From Hespellia sp. (GTDB lineage Bacteria > Bacillota > Clostridia > Lachnospirales > Lachnospiraceae), in the NCBI GenBank assembly GCA_022790755.1, contig JAAVXR010000014.1:1-64000 (forward strand): 64,000 bases of DNA, given 5' to 3'. Every line of letters begins with the position of its first letter. Positions within the stretch are counted from its first letter, which is position 1. Below the pieces are notes generated by a model. It did not search any database. It saw only the letters and a program-made list of their open reading frames with translations, and was not told where the DNA came from. Of the stretch, positions 2,171 to 55,611 are shown piece by piece. The translations under genes and the position numbers were made by a program.

Positions 2171-3190
2171 ATGAAATTGATGAAAACAGAGAATGCTGTC
2201 GGCCAGATTTTGTGCCATGATATCACGCAGATTATCAGAGGTGTTACCAAGGATGCGGTATTTCGGAAAGGACATATCATTCGGGAAGAAGATATTCCGG
2301 TGTTATTGAGTGTGGGAAAGGAACATATTTATATCTGGGAAAATAATGAACATATGTTACATGAAAATGATGCCGCTGAGATATTATATCGTTTCTGTGC
2401 AAATGAAAATATGTCTCCCACTGCTGTGAAAGAAGGGAAAATTGAAGTGATCGCGGACTGTGACGGTTTATTGAAAGTGGATACGGAGAAGTTGAATCGA
2501 ATCAATTCTCTGGGAGAAATGATGATTGCCTCCAGACATGGGAATTTTCCGGTGAAAGCGGGAGATCGGATTGCGGGAACCCGCATCATTCCTCTGGTTA
2601 TCGAGAAGGAAAAAATGGAGTGCGCAAAGGAGATATGTGGGACGGCGCCGATTTTTGAGTTGAAACGGTTTCAGAAAAAAAAGGTGGGGATTGTCACAAC
2701 GGGAAACGAGGTGTACAGCGGGCGGATTCAGGATACGTTTACACCTGTGATTGAAGAGAAGTTGGCGGAATATGATACGGAACTGATTGGGAGGGAACTC
2801 AGCGACGATAACCCACAGAGGATAACCGCCTGTATACAGAAGCTGATTCAAAGAGGAGTGGATCTAATCATCTGTACCGGCGGTATGAGTGTAGACCCAG
2901 ACGACCGGACTCCTCTGGCGATTCGCAATACCGGCGCAAGAGTCGTGACATACGGCGCGCCGGTGCTTCCGGGAGCGATGTTTCTGTTGGCATATTATGA
3001 AGGAAATCTTCCGATTATGGGGCTGCCCGGATGCGTCATGTATGCGAAACGGACGATATTTGATCTGATGCTCCCGCGGGTGATGGCAGGAGAAATACTT
3101 GAAAAGAGGGATATTGACTCTTTGGGTGAGGGTGGTTTCTGTCTGTCATGTCCGGTCTGTACATTTCCAAACTGTGGATTTGGAAAGTAA
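2171..3190 (+). CDS. Molybdopterin-binding protein, MoeA-like
   Basis: MoCF-type motifs VGIVTTGNEVYSGRI, LIICTGGMSVDPDDRTPLAI, PVLPGAMFLLAYYEG, IMGLPGCVMY; C-terminal LSCPVCTFPNCGFGK. Confidence 0.88.
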   Translation: MKLMKTENAVGQILCHDITQIIRGVTKDAVFRKGHIIREEDIPVLLSVGKEHIYIWENNEHMLHENDAAEILYRFCANENMSPTAVKEGKIEVIADCDGLLKVDTEKLNRINSLGEMMIASRHGNFPVKAGDRIAGTRIIPLVIEKEKMECAKEICGTAPIFELKRFQKKKVGIVTTGNEVYSGRIQDTFTPVIEEKLAEYDTELIGRELSDDNPQRITACIQKLIQRGVDLIICTGGMSVDPDDRTPLAIRNTGARVVTYGAPVLPGAMFLLAYYEGNLPIMGLPGCVMYAKRTIFDLMLPRVMAGEILEKRDIDSLGEGGFCLSCPVCTFPNCGFGK

Positions 3191-3297
3191 ACCTGCATGC
3201 GCCCACAAAGAACATACCACCATGCGTGAAAGTTATGAGGGCGCACTTGGCATCCCTGAATTCATGCCGCCTAATCGGCGGCGGACTTTTAAAGTAA
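3188..3297 (+). repeat. Copy 1 of a three-copy ~110-bp dispersed structured element
   Basis: TAAACCTGCATGCGCCC...GAGGGCGCACTTGGCATCCCTGA...ATGCCGCCTAATCGGCGGCGGACTTTTAAAGTAA; matches reverse complements of 22201-22312 and 51582-51692 almost end to end. Confidence 0.93.
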
Positions 3298-6228: not shown

Positions 6229-6933
6229 ATGGAGAATATGATAGAAGCTCTAAAGAGTCTGGATTGGAGTCCGCTGTATATTTCCTTGAAAACGGGAATT
6301 GTAGCTACAATATTTTCCTTTTTCCTGGGACTTTATGCCGCATGCAGGGTGATGAAAGCATCACCGAGAAAGAAAGCGGTGTTGGATGGAATTCTGACGC
6401 TGCCGATGGTGTTGCCGCCTACAGTCGCAGGATTTTTTCTATTGTTGTTTTTCAGCAGACGCCGTCTGCTCGGTATGTTTTTGTATGAATATTTTGGTAT
6501 AAAAGTAGTGCAGTCCTGGTTAGGGTGTGTTCTGGCAGCGACGGTGATCTCATTTCCGCTGATGTATCGCAATGCCAGAGCAGCATTTGAGCAGATTGAC
6601 GTCAATCTGATTTATGTCGGGCGCACCTTGGGGATGTCCGATCGAAAAATCTTCTGGAGGATTGTGGTGCCGTCGGCAGGACCGGGGATTGCATCGGGTA
6701 CGATTCTGACGTTTGCCAGGGCGCTGGGAGAGTACGGAGCAACCGTGATGTTGGCCGGTAATATTCCAGGGAAGACTGGAACCATTTCCCAGAAGATTGC
6801 GATGGTTGTGCAGGACGGTGACTATGAGAGCGCTGGCTTCTGGGTTCTGGTCGTGTTGATGATTGCATTTGGAATTATCTATTTGGTGAATATGGTAACC
6901 GGGAAAAAGGGTTGGACGATGAAGCGATGGTAG
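6229..6933 (+). CDS. modB: Molybdate ABC transporter permease ModB
   Basis: Multi-TM protein with LGEYGATVMLAGNIPGKTGTI typical of ModB. Confidence 0.95.
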   Translation: MENMIEALKSLDWSPLYISLKTGIVATIFSFFLGLYAACRVMKASPRKKAVLDGILTLPMVLPPTVAGFFLLLFFSRRRLLGMFLYEYFGIKVVQSWLGCVLAATVISFPLMYRNARAAFEQIDVNLIYVGRTLGMSDRKIFWRIVVPSAGPGIASGTILTFARALGEYGATVMLAGNIPGKTGTISQKIAMVVQDGDYESAGFWVLVVLMIAFGIIYLVNMVTGKKGWTMKRW

Positions 6934-6968
6934 AAAAGGTATAAAGGATAAAAGTAAAGGAAAAAAAT

Positions 6969-8033
6969 ATGAAGCTGGAAGTGGATATTCGGAAAAATCT
7001 GGGAGATTTCCGGTTGGATGTACAATTGAAAAGTCAGTCGTCAAGAATTGGAATATTGGGTGCTTCTGGCAGTGGGAAGAGTATGTTGCTCAAATCACTT
7101 GCTGGTATTGAGACGCCAGATGTCGGCCGAATTCAAATAGGAGAGAATGTATTTTTTGATTCGTCCCGAAAACGGAATATAAAACCGCAAATACGCAGAG
7201 TTGGGTATTTGTTTCAGAATTATGCGTTATTTCCGAGGATGACGGTGGAGAAAAATATTGAAGCTGGATTGCGAGGTGACAGGGAGCAGAAACGACGACG
7301 TGTGCTGGAGATGATGGAAAAATTTCAGATATCAGATCTGGCAGGACGCCTCCCAAGTGAATTGTCCGGTGGGCAGCAACAGCGGGTCGCACTGGCGCGG
7401 ATTATGGCCTATCAACCGGATGTTGTCTTGCTGGATGAGCCGTTTGCCGCGCTGGATATGTACTTGAAAGATCGGTTGCAGCAGGAAATGGCAGATATGT
7501 TGAAAGATTATCCTGGCATTGTTATACTGGTTTCGCACAGTAGAGATGAAATCTATCGCTTCAGTGAAGAGTTGTTGGTGATGCAACGGGGAGCTTCGCT
7601 TATTTTAGGAAGGACAAAGGAGATTTTTGAAGATCCAAGATTTGTGGAGGCTGCCAGGTTGACGGGGTGCAGAAATTTTTCTAGGATTCGGAGACTGGAC
7701 GTGCATACAGTGGAAGCTGCAGATTGGGGAATTGTGTTGCATTTTCAGGGAGATGTTCCGGAGTGGGTAGTCAGTGTCGGGTATCGGGCGCATGATTTTG
7801 TGCCGTTATGGGGAGAAAGAACAAGGAATTGTCTGAAACTGCGGGTGGAGAGTCTGGCACAAGTTCCTTTTGAGTGGCACTATTATGTGTTGCCGGAAAA
7901 GGACACAGAAGAAAAGAGTACGCTCTGTTGGTTTGTACAACAAAAAAGTTGGAGAAATTTGGAAGAGAGAGGAATGCCGGATTATTTGCAATTGGAGGAA
8001 GAAAAGATTTTGTTTTTAAAAGATTCTTGTTAA
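6969..8033 (+). CDS. modC: Molybdate ABC transporter ATP-binding protein ModC
   Basis: Walker A GASGSGKS, signature LSGGQQQRVALARI, Walker B VVLLDEPFAALD; follows modB. Confidence 0.93.
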   Translation: MKLEVDIRKNLGDFRLDVQLKSQSSRIGILGASGSGKSMLLKSLAGIETPDVGRIQIGENVFFDSSRKRNIKPQIRRVGYLFQNYALFPRMTVEKNIEAGLRGDREQKRRRVLEMMEKFQISDLAGRLPSELSGGQQQRVALARIMAYQPDVVLLDEPFAALDMYLKDRLQQEMADMLKDYPGIVILVSHSRDEIYRFSEELLVMQRGASLILGRTKEIFEDPRFVEAARLTGCRNFSRIRRLDVHTVEAADWGIVLHFQGDVPEWVVSVGYRAHDFVPLWGERTRNCLKLRVESLAQVPFEWHYYVLPEKDTEEKSTLCWFVQQKSWRNLEERGMPDYLQLEEEKILFLKDSC

Positions 8034-22186: not shown

Positions 22187-22200
22187 ATGCCCAACTCCTT

Positions 22201-22312
22201 TACTATGAAAATCCGCCGCCGAATAGGCGGCATAAAATCAGGGATGCCAAGTGCGCCCTCAAAACTTTCCTGTTTGATGGATGCGCTCGATTGTGGACGC
22301 ATGCAGGTTTAC
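22201..22312 (-). repeat. Copy 2 of the three-copy structured element, in the hpf leader
   Basis: Reverse complement reads TAAACCTGCATGCGTCCACAA...GAGGGCGCACTTGGCATCCCTGATTTTATGCCGCCTATTCGGCGGCGGATTTTCATAGTA; merges with the hpf RBS (AAAGGAG). Confidence 0.93.
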
Positions 22313-49580: not shown

Positions 49581-50939
49581 ATGTGCAGAAAGTATGGGTG
49601 GCTTAAATTGATTCGAGAATATTTGGAACAGAATGTATATGAAGCTTTGCAGGATAGGTTACGATTGATTTTTGAAGAATTTGAAAACATTTATCTTTCT
49701 TTCTCGGGAGGGAAGGATAGTGGATTACTTCTGAATCTTGTTTTGGATTTTCAGAAAAAGTATTATCCGGAGAAAAAAATCGGTGTTTTTCATCAGGACT
49801 TTGAGGCTCAGTATACGGTTACATCTGAGTATGTGGAAAGGACATTTGAAGGGATTAAAGATGATGTAGAACCCTATTGGGTATGTCTTCCGATGGCAAC
49901 ACGGACAGCGCTCAGCAGTTATGAAATGTACTGGTATCCATGGGATGATAAAAAGCAGGATATCTGGGTTCGAGAGATGCCTGAGAAGGAATATGTGATC
50001 AACTTGGAAAATAACCCGATCACTACATATCGCTATCGAATGCATCAGGAAGATTTGGCAAAGCAGTTTGGACGCTGGTATCGGATGTCTCATGGCAGTA
50101 AAAAGACGGTCTGTCTTTTGGGAATGCGGGCGGATGAGTCGTTGCAGAGATACAGCGGTTTTTTAAATAAAAAGAATGGGTATAAAGGGGAATGCTGGAT
50201 TGGAAAACAGTTTAAGGATGTTTGGTGTGCTTCCCCGATTTTTGATTGGACCTCGGAAGATATTTGGCATGCTAATTATACATTTAATTATGATTATAAT
50301 CGGTTGTATGATCTATATTATATGGCCGGGCTGAAAGTGTCTCAAATGCGTGTGGCATCGCCATTTAACGATTATTCCAAGGATGCATTGAATCTGTATA
50401 GAGTGATTGATCCTCAGATTTGGGTGAAGTTGGTGGGAAGAGTAAGGGGAGCAAACTTTACCAGTATTTACGGAAAAACAAAGGCCATGGGGTATCGAAG
50501 CATCAGTTTGCCGAAAGGTCATACCTGGAGATCGTATACGATATTTTTGCTGGATACACTTCCTACAAGGCTTCGCAATAATTACGTAAAAAAATTTAAT
50601 GCTTCTATAGAATTCTGGCATAAAACAGGGGGAGGCTTGGATGAAGAAACGATTCTTGAGTTAAAAGAACGTGGATATAAAATCCGAAGAAACGGTGTTT
50701 CTAATTATACGCTGAGTAAAAAATCAAGGGTCGTGTTCCTCGAAAAGATTCCAGATGATACAGATGACATCAAGTCCACGAAAGATATACCGAGTTGGAA
50801 AAGGATGTGTTATTGTATCTTGAAAAATGATCATATCTGCAGGTATATGGGGTTTGGAATGACACGGGAACAGCAGAGACGAATTGATGTTATACGTCAG
50901 AAATATAAAAATGTAGGAGAGATTAATTATGAAGTTTAA
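49581..50939 (+). CDS. PAPS reductase-family protein (IbrA-like)
   Basis: IYLSFSGGKDSGLLLNLVLDF PP-loop motif; VCLLGMRADESLQR; WTSEDIWHANYTFNYDYNRLYDLYYMAG. Confidence 0.88.
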   Translation: MCRKYGWLKLIREYLEQNVYEALQDRLRLIFEEFENIYLSFSGGKDSGLLLNLVLDFQKKYYPEKKIGVFHQDFEAQYTVTSEYVERTFEGIKDDVEPYWVCLPMATRTALSSYEMYWYPWDDKKQDIWVREMPEKEYVINLENNPITTYRYRMHQEDLAKQFGRWYRMSHGSKKTVCLLGMRADESLQRYSGFLNKKNGYKGECWIGKQFKDVWCASPIFDWTSEDIWHANYTFNYDYNRLYDLYYMAGLKVSQMRVASPFNDYSKDALNLYRVIDPQIWVKLVGRVRGANFTSIYGKTKAMGYRSISLPKGHTWRSYTIFLLDTLPTRLRNNYVKKFNASIEFWHKTGGGLDEETILELKERGYKIRRNGVSNYTLSKKSRVVFLEKIPDDTDDIKSTKDIPSWKRMCYCILKNDHICRYMGFGMTREQQRRIDVIRQKYKNVGEINYEV

Positions 50940-51462
50940 AAGTCCTGTTTATAATGTGATTTCGGTTCCGATAGATAAAATTAAGCCAAATACTTATAAC
51001 CCGAATGCGGTTGCACCTCCGGAGATGAAATTACTCTATGCGAGTATTAAGAATGATGGGTATACAATGCCTATAGTTTGTTATTATAATAAGGAAAAAG
51101 ATGAATATGTGATTGTTGATGGATTCCACCGTTATCGGGTTATGTTGGAGCATTCGGATATTTATGAGAGAGAGAATGGTATGCTTCCAGTTTCTGTGAT
51201 TGATAAGGCATTGGATCAAAGAATGGCGAGTACGATTCGCCATAATCGTGCGAGGGGAAGTCATGATGTGGATTTGATGAGTAATATTGTAAAAGAACTG
51301 CACGAGCTGGGGCGTTCTGATGCGTGGATTTCCAGACATCTTGGTATGGATAAAGATGAGATTTTACGATTAAAACAGATTACAGGATTGGCGGCGCTGT
51401 TTAAAGATGTGAAATTTGGAAAAGCATGGAAGCCGGCGGAGGGTAAGAAAGATGCCGGTTAG
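50929..51462 (+). CDS. ParB/Srx-like nuclease domain protein (IbrB-like)
   Basis: VPIDKIKPNTYNPNAVAPPEMKLLYASIKNDGYTMPIVC...YVIVDGFHRYRV; overlaps end of the PAPS-reductase ORF. Confidence 0.88.
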   Translation: MKFKSPVYNVISVPIDKIKPNTYNPNAVAPPEMKLLYASIKNDGYTMPIVCYYNKEKDEYVIVDGFHRYRVMLEHSDIYERENGMLPVSVIDKALDQRMASTIRHNRARGSHDVDLMSNIVKELHELGRSDAWISRHLGMDKDEILRLKQITGLAALFKDVKFGKAWKPAEGKKDAG

Positions 51463-51581: not shown

Positions 51582-51692
51582 TTACTTTAAAAGTCTGCCG
51601 CCGAGTAGGCGGCATAAACTCAGGGATGCCTAGGGCGCCCTCACAACTTTCATGTTTGGTGATGCGCTCTTTTGCGGGCGCGTGCAGGTTTA
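51582..51692 (-). repeat. Copy 3 of the three-copy structured element
   Basis: Reverse complement reads TAAACCTGCACGCGCCCGCAA...GAGGGCGCCCTAGGCATCCCTGAGTTTATGCCGCCTACTCGGCGGCAGACTTTTAAAGTAA; TAA is the stop of the 51690-52760 gene. Confidence 0.93.
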
Positions 51693-54273: not shown

Positions 54274-55611
54274 TTAATATTCGTCATAATCATCGTCAAA
54301 TGGATCGTCATAATCGTCATTGTCGTCATCATAATAATCATCGTCACCATCGCGCAATAAAATGGCGAAGGCCACAAAAGTAATTACCAATATGATGGAT
54401 AGGATGGCTCCAATGAGTAACCACTTATCATCTCCTCTTTTTAGGAAGGTGAATATACCACTGCCTGCGCATAACAGGATCGGAATGATAAATGCGGTAA
54501 AAGAGCGCTTACTCTTCATAATTAATGTAATCAAACCAGTAATGAGCAAACAAAGAGCAAGAATTAAATAAGTAGTTGAAGTAGTAATCTTTCCTCCAGA
54601 AGTGATACCGTCTAATTTTGCCATGACAGCTTTGAATCCGAAGAATACAGCACACAAAATTGTGAGGATTCCAATAATAAGACGAGGAATCTCATAAGTT
54701 GGTACTGGTGGTTCTTCCGGGATGCTTGGTTTTGGGGCTTGCTTTGCCGGTTGAGGATGATTGGTTACATGCCTTTCTGAGGAGCCTGTAGAAGAAGGCC
54801 GTTTCTTTTTCCGGGGTTGTTGGTGTTGATTTCCGGAATCTGAGGTTAGCATGTCTTCATAATTTCTTTTTACAGCGGATTCACGTTTTTTACGTACGTT
54901 TTCCGGAGGAATATTCCCGTACTGAGATTTTTTCTTTTCAGTAGGATGGGATGTAGAGTGTTCTAAATTTTCATTTCCCGAATGCGGTGATCTTTTTCGA
55001 GTACTATTTGGACGTTTGGTTCTTTCAGGTTTCGAATTATTTGCCGTTTTAGTCGAACTATCAACATTTTTTGAAGAATCGTTGATTTTTGAAGAACTAT
55101 TGGTTTTGGAAGCGCCAGCAGCTTTTGGAGATCGGCCAGCTTTCGAAGTACTAGCAGATTTGGAAGCATCCTCGGTTTTGGAAGCACTAGCAACTTTTGA
55201 AGATTGGTTGGCTTTCGAGATACTGGCAGCTTTTGGAGAACCATTGGCCTTGGAAATATTTTCTGATTTTTTGGAGTTACCAGATTTGGAAGCATCTGCT
55301 ATTTTTGCTGAAGTCTCTGGTTTAGAAGTCTCTGCTATTTTTGCTGGAGTCTCTGTCTTGGATGCTTCTGTTATTTTTACGGAGTCCTTGTTGATAGTTG
55401 GATAGGCTGTTTTTGAAGAGTCGATTGTTTTTTTTGTAGCATTCGCGGTTTTGGCTTCCATCGCTTTTTTTTGGCGCTGTTTGTCCAAGTTCCACTTTTT
55501 CCTACAGTCTCGACATATTGCAAATTCATTTAAGATCGGCTCACCATTATCATCAAGGCCCACTTGTATTTTCTGTAATTCTACATCTTTGCCACATTTT
55601 GGACACTTCAT
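54274..55611 (-). CDS. Zinc-ribbon membrane protein with 12-aa tandem repeats and acidic C-terminus
   Basis: N-terminal MKCPKCGKDV...CRDCRKKW; Ser/Lys/Ala repeats; four hydrophobic segments; DDDYYDDDNDDYDDPFDDDYDEY end. Confidence 0.85.
   Translation of the reverse strand: MKCPKCGKDVELQKIQVGLDDNGEPILNEFAICRDCRKKWNLDKQRQKKAMEAKTANATKKTIDSSKTAYPTINKDSVKITEASKTETPAKIAETSKPETSAKIADASKSGNSKKSENISKANGSPKAASISKANQSSKVASASKTEDASKSASTSKAGRSPKAAGASKTNSSSKINDSSKNVDSSTKTANNSKPERTKRPNSTRKRSPHSGNENLEHSTSHPTEKKKSQYGNIPPENVRKKRESAVKRNYEDMLTSDSGNQHQQPRKKKRPSSTGSSERHVTNHPQPAKQAPKPSIPEEPPVPTYEIPRLIIGILTILCAVFFGFKAVMAKLDGITSGGKITTSTTYLILALCLLITGLITLIMKSKRSFTAFIIPILLCAGSGIFTFLKRGDDKWLLIGAILSIILVITFVAFAILLRDGDDDYYDDDNDDYDDPFDDDYDEY
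55042..55365 (-). repeat. Nine in-frame 36-bp (12-aa) degenerate tandem repeats
   Basis: Residues 83-190 align as 9 units of [AITS]SKxxxxxKxxx; final unit diverges. Confidence 0.8.

Follow-up and report, generated by a model that had tools for sequence, protein, structure and literature searches.

A small gene-free repeat of Lachnospiraceae, probably mobile, found behind host sequences that resemble its own 3' end

A short structured sequence lies between two genes of molybdenum cofactor synthesis in Hespellia sp. and recurs twice more in the window, i.e., the whole 64,000-nucleotide stretch of DNA that was analysed. This raises the question of whether it is an RNA made by the cell or a piece of DNA that moves, given that the initial annotation had left it between a new small RNA or 3'-UTR element, a REP-like repeat and a MITE. 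The evidence set out below indicates that it is very probably a non-autonomous mobile DNA repeat of ~107-109 nt that carries no gene and would be spread by an enzyme acting in trans, a mobility that we infer from the comparison of genomes.

The repeat unit and its boundaries

A repeat search of the window found the three copies of the initial annotation present as described, with gap-free pairwise identities of 84-86%. Their location stands, while their ends were tightened using the tandem junctions and the flanks, which set the unit from ACCTGC, directly after TAA, to GTAA. The features are the following:

3180..3190, + strand: left target site of copy 1, TTGGAAAGTAA, from motif analysis; this is host DNA and takes in the upstream gene's stop codon
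3188-3190, + strand: host stop TAA abutting the 5' end of copy 1, which terminates a 348-codon open frame
3191..3297, + strand: copy 1, unit ACCTGC...AAAGTAA of 107 nt, between the MoCF_biosynth (molybdopterin) gene and a moaA-like radical SAM gene, co-directional
3266..3282, + strand: 3' subterminal hairpin of copy 1, GCCGCC-TAATC-GGCGGC, with compensatory changes in the family
22200..22308, - strand: copy 2, unit of 109 nt, followed after 13 nt by the ATG of an hpf/raiA-type gene (Ribosomal_S30AE) and preceded at ~50 nt by a CorC_HlyC-domain gene
50929-51462, + strand: gene 3' of copy 3, convergent with it
51582..51689, - strand: copy 3, unit of 108 nt, whose 5' end abuts the TAA of an NMT1-type ABC substrate-binding protein gene
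51690-51692, - strand: TAA stop of the NMT1-type gene, adjoining the 5' end of copy 3

In single copies the whole of ACCTGC to GTAA is conserved, and the right-hand conservation ends abruptly. Alignments of the copies show that the element ends, ACCTGCATGC and TTTCAnAGTAA, are not complementary, and therefore there are no terminal inverted repeats. The initial annotation had recognised no named RNA family, and this agrees with Rfam 15, in which no covariance model matches the element at the gathering threshold or at E<=10. As far as the literature and sequence libraries show, the repeat family is apparently undescribed. A different, imperfect tandem repeat with a period of ~36 bp occupies positions 55069-55266 of the window.

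Distribution, empty sites and target sequence

The family is not confined to the three loci of the window, a case that the initial annotation had allowed for. A BLAST search of the whole assembly (2.59 Mb, 81% complete) gave 44 matches at E<=1, and a covariance model built from 61 diverse copies found at least 60 copies in it, with many more in other genomes. Among 61 genomes comprising the source genome and its relatives, only two were positive, the source genome and one other with two weak copies, and a covariance-model scan of the complete same-genus genome G019 found none. A scan of 85,462 species genomes for the conserved core returned 106 stretches with the exact core, in records labelled Lachnospiraceae, Hungatella, Enterocloster, Candidatus Limivivens, a Clostridiaceae bacterium or just 'bacterium', with 2 to at least 150 copies per core-positive genome. 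Thirteen of 19 element-bearing genomes carry 18 to at least 150 copies, and most of the element-rich Lachnospiraceae that were examined carry 30 to at least 150 each (79 in E09__bin63, 97 in G012, 115 in G005, 121 in D16-56 and at least 150 in the isolate 1XD42-76). Viral contigs gave no match to the exact core pattern, and neither did phage and plasmid collections by blastn. Copies that are 100% identical occur at unrelated loci in E09__bin63 and S34M_St_102; most dispersed copies of the source genome are at most 85-92% alike, given which the family may be inactive there. The patchy spread, the similarity within genomes and the identical dispersed copies together indicate the trace left by a mobile sequence.

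Occupied and empty orthologous sites were both found at the thrS leader, at fabZ-accC and at one further site, in comparisons with relatives that are only ~72-85% identical. In the thrS leader, where the element is read from the sequence to lie between the T-box terminator and the start codon, G003 has one copy and G008 one full and one truncated copy, and the element is absent from G004, G005, G010, G012 and G016. Exact removal of ACC..GTAA restores a collinear alignment of fabZ-accC with the empty orthologue of G019, and does the same for one locus of G003 aligned with G012. No target-site duplication was found, the left and right motifs commonly differing within one copy (e.g., L007, L013 and L014). 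At the orthologous thrS site of G011 (L280 ~1280-1510) there is another, long palindromic repeat, GCACGGGCC..., which suggests an insertion hot spot downstream of the T-box.

Taken together, these genome comparisons show, at the level of sequence, insertion of a discrete unit ACCTGC...TTTCAnAGTAA without target duplication, directly 3' of a host motif that differs little from the 3' end of the element, TTTCAnAGTAA. An occupied site thus reads host-TTTCAnAGTAA/ACCTGC...TTTCAnAGTAA/host, with slashes at the junctions. The base frequencies in the left (host) flanks are T.54, T.54, T.37, C.40, A.63, n, A.73, G.62, T.78, A.96 and A.98. These flanks match TTTCAnAG at 3.81 of 7 positions, the figure for 31 upstream offsets being 1.82, with an sd of 0.09 for the offset means. 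Since the target motif is also present in the tail of the element, the next copy can enter directly behind an existing one, which would give the head-to-tail arrays of up to five units (TAAACCTGC...AAAG/TAAACCTGC..., period 106-109). In the same way, many insertions lie flush behind TAA stops because the target ends in TAA, and such insertions do no damage to the gene upstream.

Undetected remnants of older copies could have contributed part of the left-flank motif. The 25 stop-linked flanks, which are 3' ends of coding sequences, reach a score of 3.28, compared with 1.84 at 862 other TAA stops, and their position inside coding sequence argues against a remnant origin for at least a fraction of the flanks. 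The motif match count of the left flanks has a broad distribution with a single mode and gives no hint of a plain mixture of random DNA with hidden remnants, and remnants may still contribute.

The variable base 'n' of the element end is mostly A (or T) in the source genome, C in D16-56, G in E09 and T in S34M, and the host flanks follow it. The flank base equals the element-end base of the genome in 48 of 83 cases, the mean of the shuffles being 20.8 and none of 20,000 reaching the observed value (p<=5e-5). Within genomes the link is weaker, a flank matching the end of its own copy slightly better than that of another copy (p=0.0008). In the alignment of the 61 diverse copies this coevolution occurs without any covarying guide base. 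It is tempting, albeit doubtful, to propose that the element finds its targets by identity to its own tail, with neither a covarying guide nor a motif fixed by an enzyme deciding the choice, so that the host sites would shift with the tail of each lineage (n = A/T, C, G or T) and the mover would be neither a Y1 transposase nor a RAYT.

Partial copies were considered as possible traces of a larger autonomous version and rejected, given that the left-only and right-only hits look like decay and no cargo lies between ends. Two variants of D16-56 (L114:6521-6740 and L062:7147-7240) have the part that separates the 3' hairpin from the TTTCACAGTAA tail replaced by a shared stretch of ~50-120 nt (..GCGCAG..CCTGCAGCA/CTCCAGCAGGGATT..). 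At another locus of the source genome (G000:C76, L208:6965-7008) the right end of the repeat is apparently read through in frame in a sugar-kinase-like open reading frame (6671-7261), adding ~15 residues (..NLPEYIPPSTVNFQSKEKKN..).

Secondary structure and gene context

The covariation check proposed in the initial annotation favours the 3' hairpin, which is kept by compensatory changes: three of its pairs are each changed on both sides in seven sequences, and the whole structure has 23 cells with two-sided changes, compared with 5.7 in shuffles. The GCCGCC/GGCGGC stem had been described as invariant and turns out to vary in the family with pairing kept: in many copies it reads GCTGCC/GGCAGC, and in strain D16-56 ATCGCC/GGCGAT. 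At the foot of this hairpin lies a conserved TGAA, which in 91% of cells pairs with the TTCA of the tail. The pairing of TGCGCCC with GGGCGCA, also put forward earlier, is possible, as it pairs in 95% of cells, but the helix hardly varies and so gains little from covariation; an alternative local 5' hairpin is at the level of shuffles. A long-range GAAAGT/ACTTTC pairing is marginal (14 of 500 shuffles as high), and the folds of single copies are only 1.5-2.2 SD below shuffles. No terminator-like site was seen at copy 1, and the position of the element between the T-box terminator and thrS argues against strong termination by the element.

Copies occur in every gene arrangement, and inside operons such as those of molybdenum cofactor synthesis and fabZ-accC and in the thrS leader. 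In 25 of 161 groups (~16%), as at copies 1 and 3, the TAA, TGA or TAG at the 5' end terminates a co-directional gene. In an element-free relative of the genus, the NMT1-type gene next to copy 3 stops at the same codon, which means that this stop is host sequence with the element behind it; copy 1 has the same stop-abutting arrangement behind the MoCF_biosynth gene. With the stop-linked copies set aside, the upstream gene is co-oriented in 74 cases and anti-oriented in 57, and within same-direction gene pairs there are 50 sense and 31 antisense copies, a weak bias. A strong transcript-sense bias was therefore discarded, being largely accounted for by the stop-linked insertions. With respect to replication, where a preference for the lagging-strand template would speak for an IS200/IS605-derived PATE, 28 copies of the source genome run with the GC skew and 25 against it, showing no preference in that genome, and the ratio in other genomes is 67:42.

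Candidate mobilising systems and rival explanations

The anatomy of the element is most like that of the IS200/IS605 and PATE elements, with membership failing on the missing autonomous partner. PATEs are palindrome-associated transposable elements of haloarchaea derived from IS200/IS605 (PMC3119063). They are likewise too short for a transposase, lack terminal inverted repeats and target duplication, have a near-terminal palindrome and a conserved oligonucleotide at the terminus that is in fact the target, and reach tens to hundreds of copies. Unlike them, the present element is bacterial, has only ~107 nt, forms head-to-tail arrays, and has an 11-nt target that resembles its own tail and changes with it between lineages, and no related autonomous element of the IS605 type was found. 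As for palindromes at both ends, by which PATEs are recognised, the 3' hairpin shows compensatory changes and the 5' hairpin is at shuffle level; as for ends shared with an autonomous Y1-encoding insertion sequence, no Y1 or TnpB-like locus carries them. Elements such as IS608 (PMC5934647, PMC7290912) also insert 3' of a short sequence that is fixed and stays at the left end, and have a subterminal hairpin, paired segments resembling guide and cleavage sites, and neither terminal inverted repeats nor target-site duplication, but the element described here has no tnpA or tnpB, a longer and more degenerate target, and no replication-strand bias in the source genome. REP/RAYT systems (PMC3733652) likewise have palindromic intergenic repeats in high copy number, from whose ends neighbouring genes can take their stop codons, and differ in their size of 20-40 bp, against 107 nt here, in their GTAG/CGTC tag and in their associated RAYT. 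MITEs and the ERIC/RU small intergenic repeats (PMC10969869, PMC2759123) are also small, gene-free, dispersed, mostly intergenic and structured, and are distinguished by the terminal inverted repeats and target-site duplication that are absent here.

TnpB-like genes were also considered as carriers of the ends and rejected, since at none of 28 loci is there an element-like end at the gene and the few nearby copies give no clear excess. A family of TnpB-like proteins (~440-530 aa; L261 at G000:C77 ~4000, L267 at G000:C15 and L278 at G000:C45 in the source genome, L258-L279 in relatives) has an intact zinc ribbon, lacks the usual RuvC acidic motif (VGVSCGM or YIHLGY in place of GIDxG) and shows no matching Glu/Asp motifs, so that it is probably nuclease-dead. 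Most of the genes are followed by a conserved stretch of ~350 nt (ACGGCATTAGAAGGCAG ... CTGCGTATTGGGTATGCCAGGAC ... GACGTAGCAGGGAGCGAAGCGG ... GATGACCAATATGCCTTATTTT), which includes parts able to form stems, matches nothing in Rfam and often leads into a gene starting with MRKxQKxQAEE. Protein and stretch could form an RNA-guided regulator (TldR-like) with its guide RNA. The element's GCGCATTTGGCATCCC resembles GCGTATTGGGTATGCC in an RNA downstream of a TnpB-like family, with an nhmmer E of only ~8.

How the repeat would move can be outlined from its structure. It may pass through a circular junction, TTTCAnAGTAA/ACCTGC, with a single-strand step using the conserved subterminal hairpin, as in IS200/IS605 and its PATE derivatives; just as conceivably, the enzyme is a different HUH nuclease or a core-identity recombinase. 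A PATE derived from IS200/IS605 and mobilised by a Y1 (HUH) TnpA via single-strand circles, in which the TGAA at the hairpin foot guides the TTCA of the cleavage region, is a credible reading that nonetheless falls somewhat short of being probable. The lack of inverted repeats and duplications, the insertion 3' of a short oligonucleotide also found at the right end, the subterminal palindrome and the conserved TGAA-TTCA pairing all speak for it, such features being described for IS608 (PMC5934647) and PATEs (PMC3119063). Nonetheless, Y1_Tnp (PF01797) is absent from 8 of 18 element-bearing genomes, including 1XD42-76 with its at least 150 copies, no Y1 locus in the element-bearing genomes searched carries the element ends, and at the sole Y1 locus with clear copies nearby these are ~130 bp or more from the gene. 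The source genome also has no replication-strand preference (28:25), and 'n' coevolves while the guide base does not covary. This lineage coupling keeps in play a site-specific, integrase-like recombinase that would need sequence identity between circle junction and target, an explanation that we regard as rather unlikely. Identity beyond the fixed motif does link target and element end, in the agreement of 'n' at genome level and in the excess at copy level, and matches at neighbouring positions adjacent to the junction are correlated; the targets, however, are far more degenerate than usual integrase cores, and the element has no recognisable arm-type repeats.

A REP sequence mobilised by the resident RAYT is highly improbable. 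The source genome does encode a single RAYT-type Y1 transposase of 259 aa, a REP_Tyr_transpos-type protein scoring just under the model cut-off (G000:C89, L137:1090-1869), beside a stretch weakly like the 3' half of the element (score 13.6, equalled by ~4% of random windows and so not significant as a relic). Its distribution largely refutes it as the mobiliser, given that an orthologue with 45% identity is present in the element-free G019 and none was found in the other element-bearing genomes tested. There is also no element within the RAYT locus, no RAYT flanked by the repeat and no GTAG/CGTC tag in the element consensus. A cis-acting RNA, acting as a 3'-UTR or operon-internal processing or regulatory hairpin kept by selection, is improbable too. 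It would suit the compensatory changes in the 3' hairpin and the copies, often in sense orientation, that fit snugly between a stop codon and a ribosome-binding site. Against it stand the near-equal orientation once stop-linked copies are removed, the occurrence in all gene arrangements, the presence or absence of the element between orthologous operons, its absence from the same-genus G019, the lack of an Rfam match and the modest folds of individual copies, and the need for the hairpin could just as well lie in single-stranded DNA. Of the classes proposed in the initial annotation, the RNA reading thus loses ground and the mobile repeat gains it, by patchy distribution, empty sites, target specificity, tandem arrays and identical dispersed copies, with the canonical MITE dropped for want of inverted repeats and target duplication. 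What counts against the preferred reading, a non-autonomous mobile repeat, is that no transposase or recombinase is tied to the element and that no full-length autonomous relative was found.

The repeat is abundant in gut bacteria, with up to at least 150 copies per genome, and should be masked before such repeats are called regulatory RNAs. It is a candidate marker for strain typing and expression tuning in Lachnospiraceae, and it provides natural material for studying how an element that carries no gene comes to find targets that follow the sequence of its own end.
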